Shown: piece by piece, positions 13,675 through 28,475 of the stretch
How positions within the stretch are numbered: the stretch's first letter is position 1
Layout: each line of letters starts with the position of its first letter
DNA from: Antitrichia curtipendula
Taxonomy: Eukaryota; Streptophyta; Bryopsida; Hypnales; Leucodontaceae
DNA: 64,000 nucleotides
Assembly (NCBI GenBank): GCA_951230915.1
Contig: OX579635.1
Span: 28,458,001-28,522,000 of the forward strand
Reading direction: 5' to 3'
Translations under genes and position numbers: made by a program
The notes under the pieces: model-generated
What the model saw: the letters and a program-made list of their open reading frames with translations, nothing else
What the model was told of the DNA's origin: nothing
Database searches by the model: none

Positions 13675-13687
13675 GGTATTCAAACCA
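13675..13687. repeat. 13-bp direct repeat at left edge of the 12-kb transposon (contains TSD)
   Basis: GGTATTCAAACCA occurs here and again at 25865-25877, overlapping the two inverted ends. Mutator-like elements normally duplicate about 9 bp, so the true target duplication is probably a 9-bp part such as TATTCAAAC. The extra matches would then belong to element ends that start CAAC or CCGG. Confidence 0.7.
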
Positions 13688-13745
13688 ACGACGCTAGTAT
13701 GTGAGCATGTGAGCATGAGCCTATGAGCGGTGAGCAGGAATTGCG
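13686..13745 (+). repeat. Left terminal inverted repeat with TGAGC boxes
   Basis: Several TGAGC units in direct orientation follow GCTAGT. These repeated boxes are candidate transposase binding sites, by analogy with subterminal repeats of other plant DNA transposons. Confidence 0.7.
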
Positions 13746-14231
13746 TGAGCCTGAAGTCTACAAATTTGAATTTTGGAGAAATTTCTAATTTTTTGTAATT
13801 AAAAAGGAAAAAAATTTGAGGTTTTGTTAGCAAAGTTTTTTTTTGAAAATATGTCCTATTGCCATGGGACCCATGACCGTGGATTTAAAAGCCTAAAAAG
13901 TTGGTGCTATTGCAGACTCAAATTTTATATCCAAGTTTAATGGTTTAAATCACATCTTCAGAGTCTGTCTTAGAATAGGCTTATAAAGTGAAAGTACAAA
14001 TAGTTAATCCAAAAGGAATTCTAAAATTGACAAAAAGACAAATACAATGAAAATATCAAAAAGAATTCAACATCCTACAGATAATAAAATATTTTGTCAT
14101 TGCAAAAAAGAATAGATATTGAAATATGAGTATAATAATCTGCATATATAAAAATTTTGAAGATAAAATATTGGTACTATAGATGTATTTCATATCATGC
14201 TAATACTAGTCAACTAACTTGTTCATTAACT

Positions 14232-17200
14232 TCACTCGCATGTCTTGATGATTCCGGCAGCAACGAACACTTGTTTAACTTCATTCGAACTCAAGGTAGG
14301 AGCGTGGATGAATGTGTCTGTCTTGTAATTCAATTTGCAAAAGTAACAAAAGATGTAATAAAGATGCTTGCAGTTTATGTACATACCACGCTTTCCAATG
14401 GAAGTTCCATTCATACCTCCATAATGAGGACATGTACAAGATGGAAAATTTGAAAGCGTGATATTATAAACCTTTTGATTAGGTTCAGTACCAGACAGAA
14501 GTGTAATAATGGCACCAAGTCCAGGGTAAGGAAGGAAGTTTACTCCAGTGATACTTGCTGTAACATTCCTTGCACTCTCCCACTGATTGCGGTGATTTTT
14601 GGTGGGGGCCTTACTGCTCCGACGAACTTGCTTGCCATTCCGAATAGAAGGAATTCTTTCAGCATGTGCTGGTCGAGGATGAGTCCACAACATGGGCTCA
14701 AATATTCTAGATGAGGTAAATAGCCGTCGAGGTGACATCGGAATGCTAGATTGCAAGCGAAACCCAACTTCTTCAAACTCTATAATTTCGGTACGACTAA
14801 GATTTGTACCAATAAGAACAGGCCAAATCTCAGGGATCTCAGGTCGAGTAAGAACATGGGAACGCTTAGATCCCATGACGCATCGTGCAATTTGGTCTGC
14901 ACAAAACCAGAAATCCTCAGTTTGAACTGCTGTGCCCTTATACTCACGCTTTTGTCCTCTATAAGTAGGGGCAGCAGTGGATATTCCATGCCTAACAATC
15001 AATAGCTTGCATTTGGCTTGTGTATACTTTTGAATGGCATGACACTGTTTCCTTGACTTGTGAGAAAGTCTCGCTATATGCCATTCTGATGTATCGCAAT
15101 CAGTTTCCATGACAGATTGGATATGGGATAAAACCGTATTAGTTTCTACAACTGCAGACCCAAGTTGCACTCTACCAGTAGCTGATCTAATTTAAACCCG
15201 AGGATGAGAGAAGTTTACTTTGTCAGGGCGATGAGAATCACCCTCAAAACCAATTGGAAGATCTAATTTCCTTTTGCTAGACCCAAATACTTCTTCACCC
15301 TCCAAATGCGGAATTCGAGTGCAAACGTCTTCAGCTCCAGGCATCTCACTAAGTGCGTCTGCGATTTTTTTCCCATCTCCAGATGCCATAGCCCTCTTCA
15401 ATTTCAAATCTTCTTTAGAGGGGCCTTTTCCGGAAGGGCCCCCACAAAGATAAGCTCTGTAGTTGGTCATTTGCATGAAGGCTTGAACCCAGTCATCACA
15501 TGTGGCAATGAACAAATCAGATCCACGCTTTCCTGAAGCTTGCATCCATTTGTTGTGCATAGTTTCTGCAAGATTGCATGTTGGAATATCTGCTAATTTT
15601 TCTGTTGTCAATTTCTGCAAATATATTGAATGAAGTCATTATTTAAAACATTGAAGATGTAGAATAAAAACTAGAAAACCAAATTATGAAAGTAGAGATC
15701 ATACCGTATCCATGAATGCGCCCCATTGACGATATCGAAAGTGCCAAAATGCTAGCCAGTCCTCAAGTTCACGGATAGCTGGTTCTGATGCAGCTCCAGA
15801 AGAATACCACCAAGCTTTAATTTCTAAATACATCTTCTTTGCCTCAGCCATTGACGTTGCATCCTTATACTGCCTGCAGAGTCGGATATGCTGTTTTTGG
15901 AACTCTTTGGAGATTAGTTTCTCTGTGTGCTTGTGCATGCTTGTCGCCCAATGGAACAAACAAGTCCTTTCACGATCCACCATTTGAACAGATGGATCCC
16001 CTGACCCATACACAATGCGAATAGCATTGAAGTTGGCTTGAGCGCTATCACACATAAATCCCTTGAAGTTAGGATTTGACACTCCATTTTTGACCATGAC
16101 CCTATTCAAACAATGCCAAAAAATGATCTGGCCTTCGGTGCCCTCAGTCTGCATATCACATACAGCTATGGTCATGACTTTACAATAAGTGGCATCATAG
16201 ACGTGACAAGCAATAATCGTCCATAATTTCACTCTCTTGACATGATCGAACATGATAAAACAGTTTTCAAGGTTGCCGCCTGGTTGCATCCGTTGCACGA
16301 GATCCACTCCACTTCCAGGTCCATTCACAAGCATCTTGAATAAATAGACCTTATCTTGTCCTTGTCCTGGAAATACACTATCGTGGATGTACTCCATTTT
16401 GGCACGTCCCTTCATGTCAAGAATTCGATCAATCTCGCCTGCACCTTTATTGTTGTTCCGAAAGGAGGAAACAATGTTGCGCACATTGGGTGAGCTAAGG
16501 AGCTTGAACTTATCCATGACATTCTCTAACGCATCACCATGAAGCATCTCCTTTGGTCGAGGCCCATCGTGAATAAGAAACGTGTCAAGGAATTCCTTGC
16601 TTGCTGCCAAGGTAATGGCAGAAGTTTTGACTGTTGGAGTCTTAGCTACCTCGTTAGCAATTAGACTAGTTATTGCTTCAAGAGACTCTCTACATTGACC
16701 ATCAGAAACAGGATGTGAATGAACACCCAAATGGATGCATGCACGTGACAATTCTCCAGTTCTAAGTACATAATAAATTCTCGAGTTACATAGACTGAGA
16801 CAAACAGGAGGTTGTCTACAAACTTTACAGAGCACGATAAAGTCAGGAGGAGGAATCTGACCTACGTTAAAAGGATGTTTGGTGGTCCCAATCCACTGAG
16901 ATTCATTGCTTTTCAGAGCTCGTGTGCGGTAGTCACAGTTTGTATTTTCACAGATCAAGTGCCCAACACAATGCGATTTTTTAAACTTCAAACCTAAGTC
17001 ATTATGGATGTTTGATGTCATGGTGCGACACCATGTATGACCATCATATCGCTTGTCCATACCTTCCATGCCTCTAGCCCCACATGTGGAACCACGAGAA
17101 GGTGGTAGCACAAAAAGAACATTACCATCAAATCTAGTCGGGAGAAACTGAACTTTGTGGTAGTCCATGGCATCAAAATCAATTTGGGCAAGTTCGTTTC

Positions 17201-17846
17201 GTGAACCAGGCACTGAAGACAATTTGCGAAGGCATTCTAATACGGTTAAAGAATCGCGATGATTGGGGGGGAGAGGAGGACGAGAAAATCCAGACGATGC
17301 TGGACTACTAAGTGTACTATGGAAGATAGTAGGAATGGATGAATCTACCATACGTGGGAAATGAACATTCAAAGAAGAAGGTTGGCAAACTTTAATCGGC
17401 ATTTGACCTTCAGAATCGCTAGACAACTCAATGACAGGTTCTATAGACTCACGCTTGATATTGAACACAATTGTGTTCTCGGAGCATCCACTGCCTAGGG
17501 ACTCCACTTTTACAAGATGTGGTAATGGGTGTTGTCCCTTTGACTTATCAGAAGTAAGTGTCAATCCTTCAGTTGAAGGTGGTAAGAGCCCCGACAGGAG
17601 ACCATAAACTCTATAGCGTCCAGCAGGAAGAAGCCAGTAGAATCCTTCATGATCAGTACACCTTGATTGTAAGATAGACCCCGTAACAACACCGTCATCT
17701 CCTTGGAGTTCTTCCTCCACAATAATAGAAGAAGGGGTGAATCCAAACCGGACATGAAGAAGATGGGCAAGCACACGAACAATACCTTGACTGTCCAGTG
17801 GTAGAAAAAATGGGACATCATGACCTTTAGCAACAATACTAGCCAT
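14232..17846 (-). CDS. MULE-type transposase, GCM-like finger + DDE + SWIM (one in-frame stop)
   Basis: Exon 1 is 17846-15705 and exon 2 is 15614-14232 (donor ACG|GTATGA, acceptor TTTGCAG, phase 0), giving about 1,174 codons. Residues about 270-383 form a Cys/His finger resembling WRKY-GCM1: a Cys pair at 293/299, C304, then CKVC, and a final HSHP. The catalytic core follows: FDHVKR with D534, GFMCDSAQANFNAIR with D600, and CLFHW at 629-633, the C2H signature of MULE transposases. Exon 2 has CNLAETMHNKW and a SWIM finger, CTC then NCKH (about 14357-14445). A TAA at 15192-15194 interrupts exon 2 at codon 855, yet the same frame continues for 320 codons and includes the SWIM finger. MULE transposases cut and join element ends in the nucleus. 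It is divergent from the methyltransferase gene. The superfamily is confident; the exact family is not. Confidence 0.8.
15192..15194 (-). other. In-frame stop (TAA) inside transposase exon 2
   Basis: On the minus strand the reading is CCTCGGGTTTAAATTAGATC. Without the TAA, the open frame runs from 15614 to 14232. No intron of plausible length could remove it. Confidence 0.75.
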
Positions 17847-18497
17847 AGCGAAGCATTAAAAAAATGGGAAGAGAGACGAAGAATGAAGAAGTAAGCAATG
17901 ATGTTTACGAGTGTAAAGGGCGTGAATTTAAAAGGAACAATAATAGAGTTGTTCAAACTGAATGAAATTTTTTTCATGGATGTACTAAATTTGAAATTGG
18001 ATTGATAATTTGAATGGTCATGAATAAATACCGTATCAAGATTTGATATAGAAGAGGTAGGTGAAATGGAGTTGGGTAAGACGGCGTATTGTATGGTATC
18101 AATTAGCACATCACCAGTAATAAATGGATTACAATATGAAAGATATCAATATGAATTAAATCAAGTTGGCAATGTTAAAATTGTCACTGACAATAGACGT
18201 CAAGACGTCAAGCAGTAGAGTTGATGGCGACGTAGGACACGTTTACAATTATAATAATATATTTAGTGGCCGGTCGAGAATATTGTAATCGATGATGATG
18301 AGTAGCAAATAGAAGTAGCCGTTATGTAGTCATGAAATGAACTTATATCCTTGTAGGAAGAAGTTGTTGAAGTCTCATCGAATATAAAAGTTTGTAGGAC
18401 ATGAGGAAGTAGTAGATAGAAATGTAAGTTCAGAAGAGGGTGTGATGTAGTATGGTAGATGTTGATATTGTAATGCCTTGATAGTTGATTATTTCAG
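17847..18497. promoter_or_regulatory. Divergent promoter region between the two transposon genes
   Basis: These 651 bases separate the start codons of the transposase (-) and ParB-methyltransferase (+) genes, so both promoters must lie here or start within it. TTATTTCAG immediately precedes the + strand ATG at 18498, so a 5' UTR intron could end there. No defined box is claimed. Confidence 0.5.
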
Positions 18498-21400
18498 ATG
18501 CAGGAGGAATTGCTTCCTCCATTGTTAGTGTTGGACAGTGAAGTTCCACAGAGGAAGAAGAAGAGGAGAAGTAGCTTTCGTTATTCGAGTAAGAAGCAAT
18601 TGTTAAGGGCTAGAATGATTAGACGATTGTCCCGAATTAGTACAGCTGATTTGTCAAGCTCAACGAGGAATTTGACTTATGGAGATATAAGTCCATGTGA
18701 AGCAATAGGAGAGGATATTGTAGAAGTTGGGTGTACATCTTGTGAAGCTCAACCAGAGATTGTATGTAGCTATAGTGATTGTGATGAACACATTGATGAA
18801 GAAGAAGAAAATGAAGACAGGGGAGAAGGACATCAACAACAACAGCATGAGCACTTTTTACTTCCAACGCTAGAGTTGGAGATGGAGCTTGAAGTTACAA
18901 ACAGAATGGTACGTAAATAATTTTTCCAAGCAATGCTAAATGAGAAAGTATGTGAAAATTTTAGCGAGCCAGATTTCTAGGAACTTGACATGATTTTGTA
19001 CGCGTCGGAATCCCAATTCCAACGGTGTATAGCACGGAAAAAACGGATGCATATTGAGTATTTTACGGCCTAAAAACTAAAATGGCATCTTGGAATCTGG
19101 CTTGAAATCTTCAAAATCCGTTGATTTTGAGGCCAAATCCAGCCTTTTGATTTTCAGCAGTTATTGGCGAATTTTGTAAAATCGCTCGAGTGTCCAAAAA
19201 ATTTGAAAAAAATCAGAGTAATTCTGACCTGAAGAATCTACAAGTACAAAAAAATTTGGCTTAAAATTTTGAAAATTGAAAAAATTCTTTGCATGATTCC
19301 TTTGAGATACATCTACCAATTTTATACTTGTTTTGTTTTTTGTTTTTTTTGGACACTTGCTTTCACCTAAACCTTGTGGTTTCTTCGCACATTGTCTTTG
19401 AACTTTGAAGGTACCGGAGGAAGAAACTTTCACGATGGAGGAAGGGGAGGCTGCAGGAGAGGCTGCTGCGGGAGATGCGGCGGTTTTGGAGCGTGGACAT
19501 GAGCATGGAGAAATGACGATCCAGGAAGAAAAGAGGACAGCAAGTACGCCGAATGAAGCCAATCCAGGTGCGTGGCTAATTTTTTTGCCCTCTCTAAACC
19601 CCAACCGTTGACGGCTGCACTTTTTCAGATCCTATTTTGCGTTCAATATCGCCTCTCTAATGGACAGCCGTTGACGGCTACGCTTTTCTGCATTCCAGTT
19701 TAGAACTTTGTGAGCCTTCCTAGACCCCAGCCGTTAACGGCTGCGCTTTTTTCGGCTCTTTTCTTCCTCTCTAATGAACAGCCTTGAACGGACACAATTT
19801 TCGGAATTCTAATTTCAGAATCAAGGTGCTACAATTTCGTGAGCCTTCCTAGACCCCAGCCGTTGACGGCTACACTTTTGAGACATACATTTCCTTCTAC
19901 GAAACATTAGGGATTTAGGCTAATGCTGAATTCTTTTGGCTCTATACAACATTAGGGATTTGATCAAATGCTGAAATCTTTGTGACCTTGGGCCGTAGCC
20001 GTTAATGGCCATGCTTCTAGAGACATAAATTGCTTGTCAAAATATACTACATTGCTATGTTTGTCTAAAGCTAAATTTTTTAGACACTTCTTAGACCCCA
20101 GCCGTTGACGGCCACACTTTTTGAGACATATATTCTTTTATGAATGTATGCTATGTTCCTCAATGCTTATCAAAATCTGAAATTTTCTAGGAAACCTTAG
20201 ACCTCAGCCGTTGACGGCTACACTTTTTGAGACACACATTTGCTTATGAATGTATGCTATGTTCCTCAATGCTTATCAAAATCTGAAATTTTCTAGGAAA
20301 CCTTAGACCCCAGCCGTTGACGGCCACACTTTTTGAGACACACATTTGCTTATGAATGTATGCTATCTATGTCATTTTATGCTGAAAATTCTTGGGCCTC
20401 CACCAAAACTTCTTCTAATCTTTATGTATACATTGTTTTGGGGATGCCGGCAGAAGGAGATCCACAAGCACCAAGAGTCAATGCTATACTTGAGCCTCTT
20501 TCTCAAAATCAACTTGAGTTAGAGTTGCATGGATTTTTGAAGAAGGAGACTGTGAATACTTCTTCTCGTCTTGAGCGCTTGAGGTATCAACCACGAGCTA
20601 AATCAAAGATCAACATTCTTTTATGCCGTATGATATCTCTACCAGTGGTGAGGCCTTTCTTGAAGAATGATGTCATGAATTTAGCTGCACACTTTGTTAC
20701 TTGTGGTTATATGGAAGGAAATGGCGTTTTCTATGTTGCCTTGGAGAACAATGAAGGGAAGACAGTGGATGTCACGGATGACATTATCAAAACCTGAAGT
20801 CCAAATTGGCTGAGAGCAAATGCTGTATTTGAGAGAGAATTGCAAAACGATGAAGATCTCAAAGTTTTCTCTGGCAAGATGTTCATGGTATGGGATGGAA
20901 ACCATCGTTTGCAAGCATGGTTACCTCTTATCAACCGAGATCATACGGACGACTTTCAATTGCATTATGCGGTTGAAAGTATCATTTTGGAAGTCAAAGG
21001 GGATGTTGCAACTACATTGACAGCATTACATGAAGTCAATTGGTATTTCCTTATCATCCTTGATGAATTTCCATTTTTTTCAAGTCTTCCGTTTTCAATG
21101 TTTGTTCACTTTGAATCATTATGTCCTACCTTCTTTTAATTGAATGTTTAATTTATATGATTTAATATAGTAAATTTTGTTTTGGCAGGCGAAACCAGAA
21201 GTCCCATGTTTCCATAAATCTTGTTCACAAGCTCTATCGCATTCATAATATTGCCGGGCAGCCACTGTCGTATTTTGAGAAACTTGTTTCTAAGGAGGAT
21301 CTTGCTGCAGCTGAAGCCAAGCAAAAATCAAACCACAAGACTTGGTTCACTCTAACTATTGAGGCTCTAAATGGAGTCTTGTACCAGGTTTACTTCTTTA

Positions 21401-24400
21401 TTTCCTTTTCTACTTTTCATATTTTCTTGAATGTTTAGGCTTCTTGACATTAGTTCTTCTTTTTAATTTGATTTCATATCCCTTGTTCTCCTATGCAAAA
21501 CATTTGTTCTCATGAACATTTATGTTTATTTTTAAATTTTCTTTACGTTGTGGAGTAAGAGTTGGGGGATGCTGCTGCTGCTGCTCAAAGAAAATTCTAT
21601 GAAAAGTATCCCGATTCCGCGGATTGGACTTCAACTGCAGTTTCTGAGTGGGTCTCCAAAGCTATTGATAAGGTCAAGGTGGCTTCTCATTCCGAATTGA
21701 AGAAGCAGCTTCCCATTGCAGATCCAAAACATACGATTGCATTTTTGGAGCAAGTCAAGCTTCACTATGAAACTCATGACAACAATCCGGAGATGACCCA
21801 AGAGAAACTTTGGATGTTGGCAACTTCAGCAATGGATACTTCCATGAAGATCAAGTGGCTTGAGAGATGGAACAAGTCTCCTTCTCTTCGTGAGGCTCTC
21901 AAGTTCCCTAAACTAAAATTCAGTGACCTTGAATTTCCAGAGTGGCTTCATAAAGCTACATGGTGGGCTCAAGTAAGTACTTATCTTTCTTTCCTATAGT
22001 TTTAGTATTAATTCTAACACCATATTCATTACATATTTGTTATTTCCAATCTCTGATTTCAAATACTGTTCAGGTCCAGTCCACCTGATCTGCACCAGAG
22101 TTTGAGAAACTGGAATGTTGAAGTGATGATAACTTACTCAGATTTTGTCCAAACTGGGCATATAAATTGTTTTTTGACATCTACCGAATCTGTAGATGTC
22201 AAAAAACACCTTATATGCCCAGTTTGGACAAAATCTGAGTAAGTTATCATCACTTCAACATTCCAGTTTCTCAAACTCTGGTGCAGATCAGGTGGACTGG
22301 ACCTTAACAGTATTTTCTCAAATTCACTAAAGTCTTTCATTACAATGAATATGGTGTATTCTTTGAACCTTGTGGATCAATCAAAACATTCTTCTAATTT
22401 ACAATTTATGTGCATGGCAGTTGGCTATTGAGACCGAAAAACTCTTCAATGCTACAGTGGCTGATTTGGACGTATCTATTAACTATCTTCCTGATGGTAT
22501 GGATCCTTTGCCTACCATTTTTGATTATGTGGAGACTATGCGCATATTGTTGTGGGATACTGCATTTTTCCGTGAGTTTGCTGTGGATAAGGGGGTTCAC
22601 AAGAATAATAAGATAGAGAAGCAACTCAACTTCAAGTCAGCCATGCAAAGGGTGCTTTATAGATACTTCAAGTATGTCCTCTTCCCTGCCAAAGCCATTT
22701 CCAAGACTCCCACTTTCTTTGCCAATTATTTGGACAAAGAAAGTGAAGAGTATATGTTCACAGAGGGGATCATGGCATCTTGGGATCCCATACATTGGGA
22801 AAAATGTAGGTGGTATTTGGATTGTCCCCTCAAAAGACCACCAACTTTTGATATTGTCCTTCGAGATTCTATTGAGCCCGCCTTCAAGGGTACAGCTATA
22901 GATGTTCCTAAGAAAGCAGATAAGGAGGCAACCAAGAAGACCAGGAAGACTAGGTTAAAGAAGTTGGTGGTTGAACTTGATGATTCCAGTGAAGATGTAC
23001 TAGTTCAAGACACTATCAAGAGCCTTGTGGTTACTGGACCTTCATCTTCGAATGTTGAAGCTACACTCCCTGCTTTAAAGCGCCAGAAGACGTCTTCTAC
23101 TCCCGTGGTTTTAGTACCAACCTCCTCTCCTATTTTTGAGCTACCTCCCAAGCTTAAAGGTATGAGGAGTACATTGGCTCCTTTGTCTATCAATCATACA
23201 TCTTCTGATCTAATCTTGAACGATTCTTTTGTTAGAATCATTGAAGAAAAAAAGAAGAATGGTACATTTGGAGTACCATATGAGAACATTGTGGCTTTTC
23301 TCTCAAAGGTTAGTTTATTTGTTTTATTTCCATCTCATTTTGATTGTTATGTAATCTTACATATTCTACATCATTTACATCTTTTCATTTTTGTTCTTCT
23401 TTGACATTGACATCTTCTATTATGAATTAACATTTTTGAAATTTATCTTTACAGGTTGGTGAAGGTAGAGAGTTCTTTTTTGATGGCAAAATCCAAAAGA
23501 GACCAGCTGTAGACCTCATCATTGCAGAATATCCAGATGGTCTTCCAATTCCAGGGGTTTCAAATCCATCATCTGAAATTCCTCATTGGAATGCTAGCAT
23601 TCCAAGTTTCCTCCAAGTAATGATGGCATTCTCTCTTACCTATCTTCATGATGATGGAGCATTTCTTCTATTTTATCCTGACAGTTCCACAGTGAAGAGA
23701 GAAGTGGCTGGATTCTTCAAGAACTACAAGTTGAAGATCAAGGATGAGTGGACTATCATAAATTGCTTACATTTGGCCAATCCTATGAATCCATCCAAAT
23801 TTGTAAGTACTACTTTCAATCTTTTGTTTTTAGCTTTGATTCACTTGTAGATGTCATTTATTTTGATTTCAAGTAACACCATATTCGTTATTTCCAATCT
23901 CTGATTTCAAATACTGTTCAGGTCCAGTCCACCTGATCTGCACCAGAGACTGGAAAAATGGAATGTTGAAGTGACGATAACTTACTCAGATTTTGTCCAA
24001 ACTGGGCATATGAGGTGTTTTTTGACATCTACAGATTCTGTAGATGTCAAAAAACACCTCATATGCCTAGTTTGGACAAAATCTGAGTAAGTTATCGTCA
24101 CTTCAACATTCCAATTTTCCAATCTCTGGTGCAGATCAGGTGGACTGGACTTGAACAGTATTTTCTCAAATTCACTGAAGTCTTTTATTATAATGAATTT
24201 TGCGTTTAAATGTACAATCTAACTTGGTTTTAATTTTGATTTGCAGACTTTGAAGTTCAAGGCTTTGTTGTTGGTTCGATCATTTGCCTCTCCCATTGCT
24301 AGGCAACCTCAAGAGCTTCAGATTTCTATTGATCCCTCAATTCCTGAGGTTGATTTAACTACAGATGACGTCCTCTTCAACACTATTACGACGACAACTC

Positions 24401-25175
24401 AATCACGTAGAAAGGAAGATGGCAAGCCATGGAGGGGTGCTAAGGAGAAGTCAAAGGTTTTCATGAAGCTTTTTGTTCATGGCTTGACCCCTACAAGTGG
24501 TATTGTGGCAGACATGACTGCCTCTACAGGTATTGTAATCTATATCATTGAATCATTGTTTTTTGTATTTTCTAATTTGATTTTTCTATCTACCCTTAAA
24601 TTCTAATGTATTTGTAATGTCAATTTATTGTCTTATACAGGTTCTTCCATCAAAGCAGCTCATTCATCTAATCGTCATATTTTAGCATTAGAAAGTGATG
24701 CCAAGCTCTTTGATGAGGTACTGAAGCCATTACAAACACCTACAATCATCTCCAAGGCTCTTGATTCTACTACCTCGGATGATGATATGGAGATTGATGA
24801 TGACTCTCCAATTGAAGATGTCGAACTACTTGACTTATGTGAGTAAGTTTTATTTTTATTTTTCAATAATTTCGATTCAAAGTTTTGTATTTTGAATTTT
24901 AATTTGTTACTATATACTCAAACATATGATTTGTTGTTTGCAGTTGGATGAGTCCATCACCAAGACGCACTTTGCCTTTTTATCAACATCCTGGATTTCT
25001 TAGAAGTCTTTCTTTGAGTCCTTGTGGCCTACCTATTTATGTCGAACATTTAGCATTAGCTTATGTTGATGCTTCATCTGATTCATCTTCAATCTCTTTA
25101 TCACCTCATAGATCTTATGATCCCAGAGTATGTTCTTATTTTGAACTCAGTGCATCTGAGTCAGACGATATTTGA
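18498..25175 (+). CDS. ParB-like domain + N4/N6-type DNA methyltransferase protein (one in-frame stop)
   Basis: Ten exons join in frame: 18498-18908, 19411-19567, 20454-21042, 21189-21387, 21562-21972, 22421-23308, 23455-23802, 24247-24529, 24641-24842 and 24944-25175 (1,239 residues). The N-terminus is basic (QRKKKRR), then acidic. Residues 241-350 look ParB/sulfiredoxin-like: SLPVVRPF, LAAHFVTCGY, then MVWDGNHRLQAW with DGNHR at 337-341. A helical, Lys-rich region follows. The C-terminus resembles permuted beta-class DNA methyltransferases: VDLIIAEYPDG (about 904) where DPPY/SPPY is expected, LHDDGAFLLFYP, then GIVADMTASTGSSIKAA (about 1086) as the SAM-binding motif and NRHILALESD as motif II. 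TGA at 20795-20797 (codon 304) interrupts an open exon, possibly from a TGG Trp codon. ParB-methylase fusions are known in phages and plasmids. Activity is unproven because motif IV is altered. Confidence 0.7.
19600..20340 (+). repeat. Intronic minisatellite of AGCCGTTGACGGCT boxes
   Basis: About nine copies of CAGCCGTTGACGGCTACACTT, some degenerate, start near 19605, 19668, 19728, 19782, 19858, 19995, 20100, 20207 and 20313. The last three repeat with a period near 107 bp, including TGAGACACACATTTGCTTATG. Each core is a near palindrome: AGCCG, TTGA, CGGCT. It lies in intron 2 of the ParB-methyltransferase gene. Confidence 0.85.
20795..20797 (+). other. In-frame stop (TGA) inside ParB-like exon
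   Basis: The exon reads AAA ACC TGA AGT CCA AAT TGG. The same frame is open before and after it, and the DGNHR motif lies 33 codons downstream. A TGG-to-TGA change would explain it. Confidence 0.7.
22072..22304. repeat. 233-bp near-perfect hairpin, copy A
   Basis: Arms of about 113 bases differ at only two or three positions and enclose a loop of about 6 bases at the paired GACATCTAC/GTAGATGTC. It lies in the intron between exons 5 and 6 of the ParB-methyltransferase gene. The flanking intron sequence (TTTCAAATACTGTTC on the left, AACAGTATTTTCTC on the right) is also shared with copy B. Confidence 0.9.
23920..24152. repeat. 233-bp near-perfect hairpin, copy B
   Basis: Second copy of the same hairpin, in the intron between exons 7 and 8. 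It begins AGGTCCAGTCCACCTGATCT and folds at GACATCTACA/TGTAGATGTC. Its flanks match those of copy A for roughly 45 bases on each side, so about 330 bp of intron was duplicated or both introns received the same sequence. Confidence 0.9.
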
Positions 25176-25804
25176 GTTCAATTTCATGCTTTTATATTTG
25201 ATTTCTATTTACTTTTTGTTTAACTAAATCTAACTATGCATGATGTGGCAAATGGCAACAATTCCATTTGATGGCCTTCAACTTCACTTCATGTCCACAT
25301 TGCCTTTGAGCTTGTCTATGCCCAAATTGTCTTGAGCTTATGATTCATTCATTAAATTTACATGAAGGTCAACAATTAAGACTACATTTATCACTTAGTT
25401 ATAAGCTCAAGACCATTGTTCATGCTCTAATGCTTATAAAATTTTGCCTATCATTCAATTTATATTCAATCTCTACAACCCATATTTATTGTCCCTTCTA
25501 TTTTTAAATTGATAAATGTTCCCTTAAAATTTTGGTATTATGTTGCATTGTATTATTTTAATATATATCTTGTACTGAGATATTCTAAACCACTATATAC
25601 ACCTATTTTCATTATGTGTTACATTCAAAAACCTCCTATTTTATAATATTTCATTTTTAAAAAATAGAATGGTTCAATTCTGGGGGGCAAAATCTCATAG
25701 GAATATATTCATTTGTTATTCATTTGGACTATAGATCCTTACATTTATTTCCACGGTCATAGGACTTGAACAAATTTAGGAATACTAAATGGATAAAAAA
25801 ATGG

Positions 25805-25866
25805 AGGCTCACAGGCTCACAAGCTCACAGGCTCACGCTCACAAGCTCACAAACTAGCATCCCCGG
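25805..25866 (-). repeat. Right terminal inverted repeat with TGAGC boxes
   Basis: On the plus strand GCTCAC recurs about seven times and ends ACTAGCATCCCCGG. It is the inverted counterpart of the left end at 13686-13745. Confidence 0.75.
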
Positions 25867-25877
25867 TATTCAAACCA
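25865..25877. repeat. 13-bp direct repeat at right edge of the 12-kb transposon
   Basis: GGTATTCAAACCA, identical to 13675-13687, overlapping the right inverted end. Confidence 0.7.
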
Positions 25878-28279: not shown

Positions 28280-28475
28280 TGAGGGTTGCTATTATATGAG
28301 CATAGGAGTGTGAGCCCATGAGCCTAAAAGTGTTTATGATTATAAGGTATATATGTTACAAATACCCATATTATAAGTGTTTATGATACATACACCTTCT
28401 ATAGTATGGGGTATCTATATTATAGGCTCAATGCTCATAAGCTTGCATTCTTGGGCTCACATGCTAGCACCATTG
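28280..28475. mobile_element. 196-bp Mutator-like MITE with 9-bp target duplication
   Basis: TATATAAAT is duplicated exactly at 28271-28279 and 28476-28484. The left end reads TGAGGGTTGCTATTATATGAGC and the right end, reverse complemented, reads CAATGGTGCTAGCATGTGAGC. Both continue with TGAGCCCA/TGAGCCTA boxes. The GCTAG then TGTGAGC order matches the 12-kb transposon, so its transposase could have mobilised this element. Confidence 0.85.

Follow-up and report, generated by a model that had tools for sequence, protein, structure and literature searches.

A Mutator-type moss transposon family pairing its transposase with a ParB- and methyltransferase-like accessory gene and carrying a largely family-confined palindrome array

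In an analysis of a 64,000-nt stretch of the moss Antitrichia curtipendula genome (contig C3:28458001-28522000, hereafter the window), we found a cut-and-paste DNA transposon of 12,180 bp (window positions 13686-25865), in which a transposase gene is paired with a divergently oriented accessory gene whose predicted protein combines a ParB-like and a methyltransferase-like half. Intron 2 of the accessory gene contains an array of a 14-bp palindrome, which is otherwise very rare in the genome, and the array is largely confined to the element family. A methylase-like gene together with a rare palindrome array suggests a self-targeting escape from host silencing, and we put at roughly 40% the probability that the accessory protein is a sequence-specific anti-silencing factor acting on the array of its own family.

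The element is a recently mobile transposon of Mutator type

The left end of the element, CAACGACGCTAGTATGTGAGC..., begins at 13686 and the right end, ...ACTAGCATCCCCG, stops at 25865, and the two pair as imperfect inverted repeats with an alignment score of 88, whereas none of 500 letter shuffles scored above 51. The left terminal inverted repeat (13686-13730, plus strand), in which CAACGACGCTAGTATGTGAGC is followed by TGAGC-rich subrepeats, aligns with the right one (25821-25865, minus strand; reverse complement CGGGGATGCTAGTTTGTGAGC), and an identical 10-bp target-site duplication, GTATTCAAAC, lies directly outside both (13676-13685 and 25866-25875). By searching the genome (400 Mb in 303 contigs, ten of which were seen to measure 25-56 Mb each), we obtained ten close copies (L040-L059), which together with the window copy formed the copy set. 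Both ends were present in all ten fetched copies, the two terminal repeats being common to 11/11, and each of the 11 has a perfect 9-10 bp target duplication of its own. The copies are 11,536-12,407 bp long and 98.8-99.3% identical pairwise, a pattern as after a transposition burst. The element is thus a real, recently mobile transposon whose past mobility is shown by its copies. An earlier note on this DNA had described a 12-kb transposon with inverted ends and a direct repeat at both edges, and it was right on each point, with coordinates correct to one base; among the fetched copies there are also intact ones, with two uninterrupted genes enclosed by these ends, whereas a lack of such copies would have refuted the note.

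The family extends beyond these close copies. With the plus-strand protein as query, the genome yielded 101 exon matches, which fell into groups at roughly 91-100% and roughly 70-85% identity, with one short piece at 56%; with transposase exon 1 as query, the places listed were 28 at 96-100% identity, a single one at 78% and another ten at 60-62%. No ends of subfamily-B elements could be located in the two short fetched stretches.

The transposase is encoded on the minus strand in two exons (17846-15705 and 15614-14232; 1174 aa), with a zinc-cluster region and a DDE-type core, both recognized by eye, in exon 1, and a SWIM-like CxC...CxH in exon 2. A search that scored 5830 candidates retrieved 51 relatives at E ≤ 1 (best E-value 9.6e-257), and the motifs MFDHVKR, GFMxDSAQAN, RERTCLFHW and the C-terminal CxC...CxH are conserved (alignment A1, P0001 and L009). 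Mutator-like elements (MULEs) are recognized by a target duplication of 9-11 bp, a DDE core with C..H after the second D and a C-terminal SWIM CxC...CxH. The conserved motifs resemble such a core and SWIM by eye, without profile support: PF10551 (MULE) matched 0/30 members of the transposase family at E ≤ 1, and hhalign of the transposase profile against eight PF10551 loci from the same genome was of no help (E 0.23). The target duplications, at 9-10 bp and perfect in 11/11 copies, are of MULE length, and because of this length and the architecture the element is assigned to the Mutator type. What had been called a MULE transposase stands as a divergently oriented transposase with MULE-like motifs by eye, which PF10551 did not match. 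Its alignment found no relatives in viral contigs. An open, intron-containing homologue was observed on the contig L009 (CADCWO010000080.1), which is deposited as part of a metagenome-assembled genome of a Synechococcales cyanobacterium and most likely represents eukaryotic contamination of it.

The transposase is paired with an accessory gene under purifying selection

The two divergent spliced genes occupy much of the element interior. The accessory gene was modelled on the plus strand with ten exons from 18498 to 25175, encoding 1239 aa. Exon 1 (18498-18908) was placed by splice sites and frame and is open in several copies; exons 2 (19411-19567), 4 (21189-21387), 5 (21562-21972), 9 (24641-24842) and 10 (24944-25175, up to the stop codon) follow the splice and frame model with copy comparison; and exon 6 (22421-23308), a linker, is placed by the model, genome matches and copy comparison. 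Both gene models are fully open in 3/11 copies, and in a fourth that is shorter by an in-frame 12 bp; this supports the two-exon and ten-exon models and agrees with the two divergent spliced genes of the earlier note. The seven other copies, that of the window included, are interrupted by stops or frameshifts in at least one of the two genes. One in-frame stop in each gene (TGA at 20795-20797 in accessory exon 3, plus strand; TAA at 15192-15194 in transposase exon 2, minus strand) means that the window copy is not intact; the position of its transposase stop is open in the homologue L009.

The ParB-like exon (exon 3) lies beside the transposase, at a near-constant divergent spacing, in 28/28 of the near-identical transposases listed and in the one at 78% (an earlier, less complete pairing gave 22/28). 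With a distant relative as query, 150 ParB-like exon places were matched in the genome, the copies of the element family among them; these were the best 150 of 1235 candidates, which were scored. The transposase and the accessory gene are therefore a fixed pair in this element family, and both proteins belong to large families. The ten transposase places at 60-62% form a third transposase subfamily, in which no accessory exon was detected: 0/10 lie within 20 kb of any of the 150 scored ParB exons.

To quantify the selection acting on the accessory gene, the ratio of nonsynonymous to synonymous substitution rates (dN/dS) was calculated with stop codons and gaps skipped, and is reported for eight of ten loci. 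Compared with four subfamily-B copies (L031, L032, L033 and L035), dN/dS was 0.05-0.06 in exons 3-4, 0.09-0.12 in exon 5, 0.17-0.19 in exon 6 and 0.18-0.20 in exons 7-9, with a dS that is itself unequal between exons (1.04-1.11 in exons 3-4 and 0.43-0.47 in exons 7-9). The more decayed copies L037 and L038 gave overall values of 0.26 and 0.28, with 0.53 in exons 7-9 of L038. For the near-identical L034 and L029 the values were 0.74 and 1.04, based on few changes and in line with what dead young copies would show. The accessory gene is under purifying selection, and its low dN/dS against subfamily B indicates that it was kept functional while the subfamilies diverged.

A rare palindrome array lies in intron 2 of the accessory gene

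Intron 2 (19568-20453) contains, between 19603 and 20325, eight occurrences of A(A/G)CCGTTRAYGGCY, a 14-bp palindrome or near-palindrome arranged in 63- and 106-bp repeats, six of which are strict sites (AGCCGTNNACGGCY). On both strands of the window the palindrome core has 19 matches versus 1.8 expected, and strict sites are found in 11/11 copies, at 3-8 per copy. Genome-wide, CAGCCGTTRACGGCY gave 120 + 172 = 292 matches over both strands, with perfectly palindromic sites counted on both, versus approximately 0.5 expected at an assumed 37% GC and 0 for the reversed control. Among the 100 places listed of these 292, 86 are within 8 kb of a known element copy, and the other 14 form five clusters, possibly decayed copies, that lie more than 15 kb from any scored ParB exon.

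The array is also present outside the close copies. The same core recurs at five exact sites, three of them spaced 97 bp, in intron 2 of a subfamily-B copy at C3:28.40-28.41 Mb, and the most repeated 12-mer of that intron, found without a preset pattern, is CAGCCGTTAACG; the core has thus been kept despite an overall dS of 0.69. No palindrome was seen at loci L031-L038, where the fetched stretches appear to end short of intron 2. Upstream of other ParB-like exons, different repeats were observed, namely GTGCAAGCTTGT seven times in L064 (1-750) and CAGCTCCCCCTT four times in L065 (1035-1241), and these repeats with other cores are maybe subfamily-specific target arrays.

Such an array could alternatively be a transposase site or a transcriptional enhancer, with the accessory protein serving as a transposition cofactor, like MURB, and not as an anti-silencing factor. 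The array does sit in an intron within the element, a palindromic site would suit any dimer, and the pairing of the two genes in 28/28 listed close copies would suit a cofactor. Transposase binding, however, is usually expected at the terminal repeats, whereas the array is internal and its core, with up to two mismatches allowed, has no match in the terminal repeats of the window copy. We regard a cofactor or enhancer role as rather unlikely, though the best placed of the alternatives.

The accessory protein has a ParB-like motif and a methyltransferase-like half

The ParB-like region is encoded around exon 3 (20454-21042). An alignment of exons 3 and 4 retrieved 333 relatives at E ≤ 1 (8000 candidates scored), and among the 120 listed of these the sole one whose record names an organism comes from Ceratodon purpureus (P0116). 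A search with the whole accessory protein gave nothing at E ≤ 0.001, perhaps because gene predictions stop at introns. In alignment A4 (35 members), D148, G149, N150, H151 and R152 are each at least 90% conserved, forming a DGNHR motif of the DGxHR type, which is a signature of ParB/sulfiredoxin-like (PF02195) proteins. No named ParB family in Pfam, PHROGs or NCBIfam matched the 35 relatives at E ≤ 1, where many PHROGs are unnamed and such matches are uninformative either way. The best matches of this half are all near chance: MC2 at 0.0029 (2 members), DndB, a DGQHR family, at 0.0059 (1 member) and DUF5531 at 0.011 (7 members). Given the DGNHR motif without a named ParB profile, the ParB-like label is a motif-level lead; of the ParB domain proposed in the earlier note, the signature is thus what was recovered. 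Neither the ParB-like nor the methyltransferase-like alignment found relatives in viral contigs.

For the second half, several profiles point in the same direction. The PHROG phrog_3008 matched at E 7.4e-5 and the PADLOC type II methyltransferase model (MTase_II) at 5e-4 when a piece of 76 aa was used and at 0.0058 with one of 262 aa. PF01555 (N6_N4_Mtase) stayed below the cut-off, at 0.037 and 0.13 with the window letters, and with the relatives it matched 2/4 members, the best at E 0.0067 and the first member at 16.6 bits versus a cut-off of 26.7. These concordant matches are weak evidence for a methyltransferase fold. The phrog_3008 and best PF01555 matches belong to exon 8 (24247-24529), the region of S-adenosylmethionine (SAM) motif I, read as VADMTASTG. 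Amino-methyltransferases have the catalytic motif (D/N/S)PP(Y/F/W), and in the permuted order this motif IV precedes SAM motif I. Here VDLIIAEYP, encoded in exon 7 (23455-23802), comes before VADMTASTG, where the end of the PF01555 profile aligns, and was assigned as motif IV by eye; the position of DPPY reads AEYP or AKYP in 9/10 loci and AKYL in the tenth, and AEYP in 9/9 element copies readable at the motif, so that the canonical DPPY is absent.

These data bear on whether the protein methylates DNA as an active N4-cytosine or N6-adenine enzyme and thereby marks the element, either to time transposition or as a mark against silencing. The agreement of the sub-threshold matches would favor such an activity, as would the purifying selection on exons 7-9 and the conservation of VADMTASTG in 8/11 copies (the other three have frameshifts or deletions there or upstream), and in the excerpted text of a study on Ectocarpus the authors propose that proteins of this kind bind and modify their own transposon (PMC12477816). 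With AEYP or AKYP replacing DPPY, catalysis is doubtful; in addition, a PDB search with the profile of the region returned no chain at E ≤ 10, and the same region gave 0.005 with an unrelated lyase model from NCBIfam. An active enzyme is thus unlikely in our view. The profile searches went half against the earlier note, giving the plus-strand protein no place in ParB and one below the cut-off in N6_N4_Mtase. The N4/N6-type fold claimed earlier is retained as a weakly supported resemblance with a non-canonical motif, and the accompanying claim that the protein marks element DNA is without support so far.

Hairpins, host silencing and other features of the window

Two near-perfect 255-bp hairpins, each with 127-nt arms that are 97% complementary, lie in intron 5 (22061-22315) and intron 7 (23909-24163) of the accessory gene. 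They are 93% alike and present in the fetched element copies. The RNA fold of the intron-5 hairpin is predicted at -217 kcal/mol (z -34.8), which makes the hairpins a possible small-RNA source. They might thus be a regulatory device whose small RNAs silence the element or mislead its silencing. The fold is in keeping with this, as are the 40/40 scored same-strand places (of 144 candidates), all of which are at element-family copies by eye, and the corresponding intron of subfamily-B copy L031, which has room for at most about 125 bp. The hairpins may also be nested elements, and a hairpin device would leave the protein unexplained; we consider this alternative improbable. From the same 40 places, the hairpins find no support as a general family of miniature inverted-repeat transposable elements (MITEs).

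At 28284-28472 lies a small element that resembles a MITE, has related ends (GCTA...TGAGC) and is flanked at both sides by TATATAAAT; another end-like motif, GCTAGTACGTGAGC (minus strand), was observed at 836-864, adjoining a CTCCCCGCTC-rich stretch.

Among the 11 copies, 480/623 substitutions (77%) are C>T/G>A relative to the majority, affecting 1.5% of CG, 1.8% of CHG and 0.7% of CHH sites per copy. This excess, with CG and CHG above CHH, fits host 5-methylcytosine silencing and decay since the burst.

That the plus-strand gene is a captured host gene carried as passive cargo, in the manner of Pack-MULEs, is very improbable: according to the excerpted text of a paper on the subject, MULEs often carry host-derived extra open reading frames (PMC6446971), but here the divergent linkage is near-fixed (28/28 copies listed), the gene is under purifying selection and its family in the genome is very large (at least 150 matches, 150 having been scored of 1235 candidates).

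Discussion

In the anti-silencing function that we favor, the accessory protein would bind the palindrome array in intron 2 of its own gene, as a dimer, through the DGNHR-containing, ParB/DGQHR-like region; the methyltransferase-like half would act at the array, either catalytically or as a binding module; and silent chromatin would be removed or blocked on copies of the element family only. Its mode of action would be like that of VANC of the Arabidopsis VANDAL MULEs, built from unrelated parts, and VANC is not known to have a ParB- or methyltransferase-like part. The earlier note had named an escape from host silencing as one possible role, and the palindrome array, which it did not mention, lends this indirect support. 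The function that we favor is also suggested by the mobility of the copies, the linkage of the two genes, the selection on the accessory gene, the traces of host methylation and the VANC precedent.

Several observations weigh against such a function. The ParB and MULE profiles both failed to match, with none of either from Pfam, NCBIfam, PHROGs or PDB sequence searches, and for the 35 ParB-like relatives this holds up to E ≤ 1. It could be the transposase or a host factor that uses the array. The repeat unit outside the core is partly common to both subfamilies, so that the two arrays may descend from one array, and the core profile of the two subfamilies was taken from sites chosen by pattern. 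The palindrome is absent at 3/3 loci of other ParB-exon subfamilies, two of which have repeats with other cores and one no array. Finally, since the copies show methylation-type decay, any escape from silencing is not permanent.

The closest functional parallel to the proposed anti-silencing factor is found in VANDAL21 and VANDAL6. As described in the excerpted text of the relevant papers, VANC21 counters silencing by way of YAGTATTAY arrays located within its own element's introns (PMC5735166, PMC10398659), and VANC motifs are short and lie in tandem repeats, also inside introns of VANC21 and VANB21 (PMC5735166). These elements are likewise of Mutator type, with an accessory protein and family-specific arrays of a short motif in introns or other non-coding parts, the motif varying between families. 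A family-specific motif array in non-coding element DNA is found here as well, judged from the 100 places listed of 292. Binding and loss of methylation have been demonstrated for VANC in that literature, whereas the moss system is known from its sequence; and VANDALs, in the excerpt describing them, have no inverted repeats or short degenerate ones (PMC6446971), whereas those of the moss element are clear.

In terms of composition, the accessory protein is closest to that of Sola1-1_Ec32 of Ectocarpus, in which, according to the excerpted text, a 1104-aa gene for a ParB-like plus N4/N6-methyltransferase protein lies on the strand opposite to the transposase (PMC12477816). Both are large DNA transposons with the transposase on the other strand and a protein of 1100-1240 aa, a likeness that rests on description, motif and weak profiles. 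Sola1-1_Ec32 differs in being of Sola1 type and from an alga, whereas the present element has 9-10 bp target duplications, a SWIM-like transposase end and a moss host; a binding-site array, present here, is not mentioned in that excerpt (PMC12477816). The same authors point to cases in green and red algae (Iyer 2011; Petroll 2025) and propose an accessory class that binds and modifies its own element (PMC12477816). Among the papers listed in our literature search, this was the only one seen to describe a ParB-methyltransferase protein in a eukaryotic transposon, the others with the same terms being bacterial by title. A bacterial-type amino-methyltransferase is also known in an animal, the bdelloid N4CMT, an N4-cytosine methyltransferase for which 4mC is reported in the excerpted text (PMC8885841); there it is a host gene, whereas here the gene is element-borne and its catalytic motif non-canonical. 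Thus, ParB-methyltransferase accessory genes in algal transposons are already known from the excerpted account (PMC12477816), and the other transposase type, the probable land-plant host, the largely family-confined palindromic array and the evidence of selection on the protein are new here.

More tentatively, land-plant transposons may have independently evolved a VANC-like anti-silencing system from a ParB-methyltransferase of phage or plasmid type, with the protein and the palindromic array co-diversifying across subfamilies, a scenario that we consider possible rather than probable. The presence of at least 150 ParB-like exons in the genome suggests that such proteins account for a large share of its mobile DNA. 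With the palindrome as a defined site for binding assays, and with copies available in which neither gene is interrupted, the role of ParB-methyltransferase-like proteins in eukaryotic transposons can be tested directly. If the proposed function is true, the moss element would represent a second, unrelated solution to the problem solved by VANC, that of a transposon switching off host silencing only on itself.

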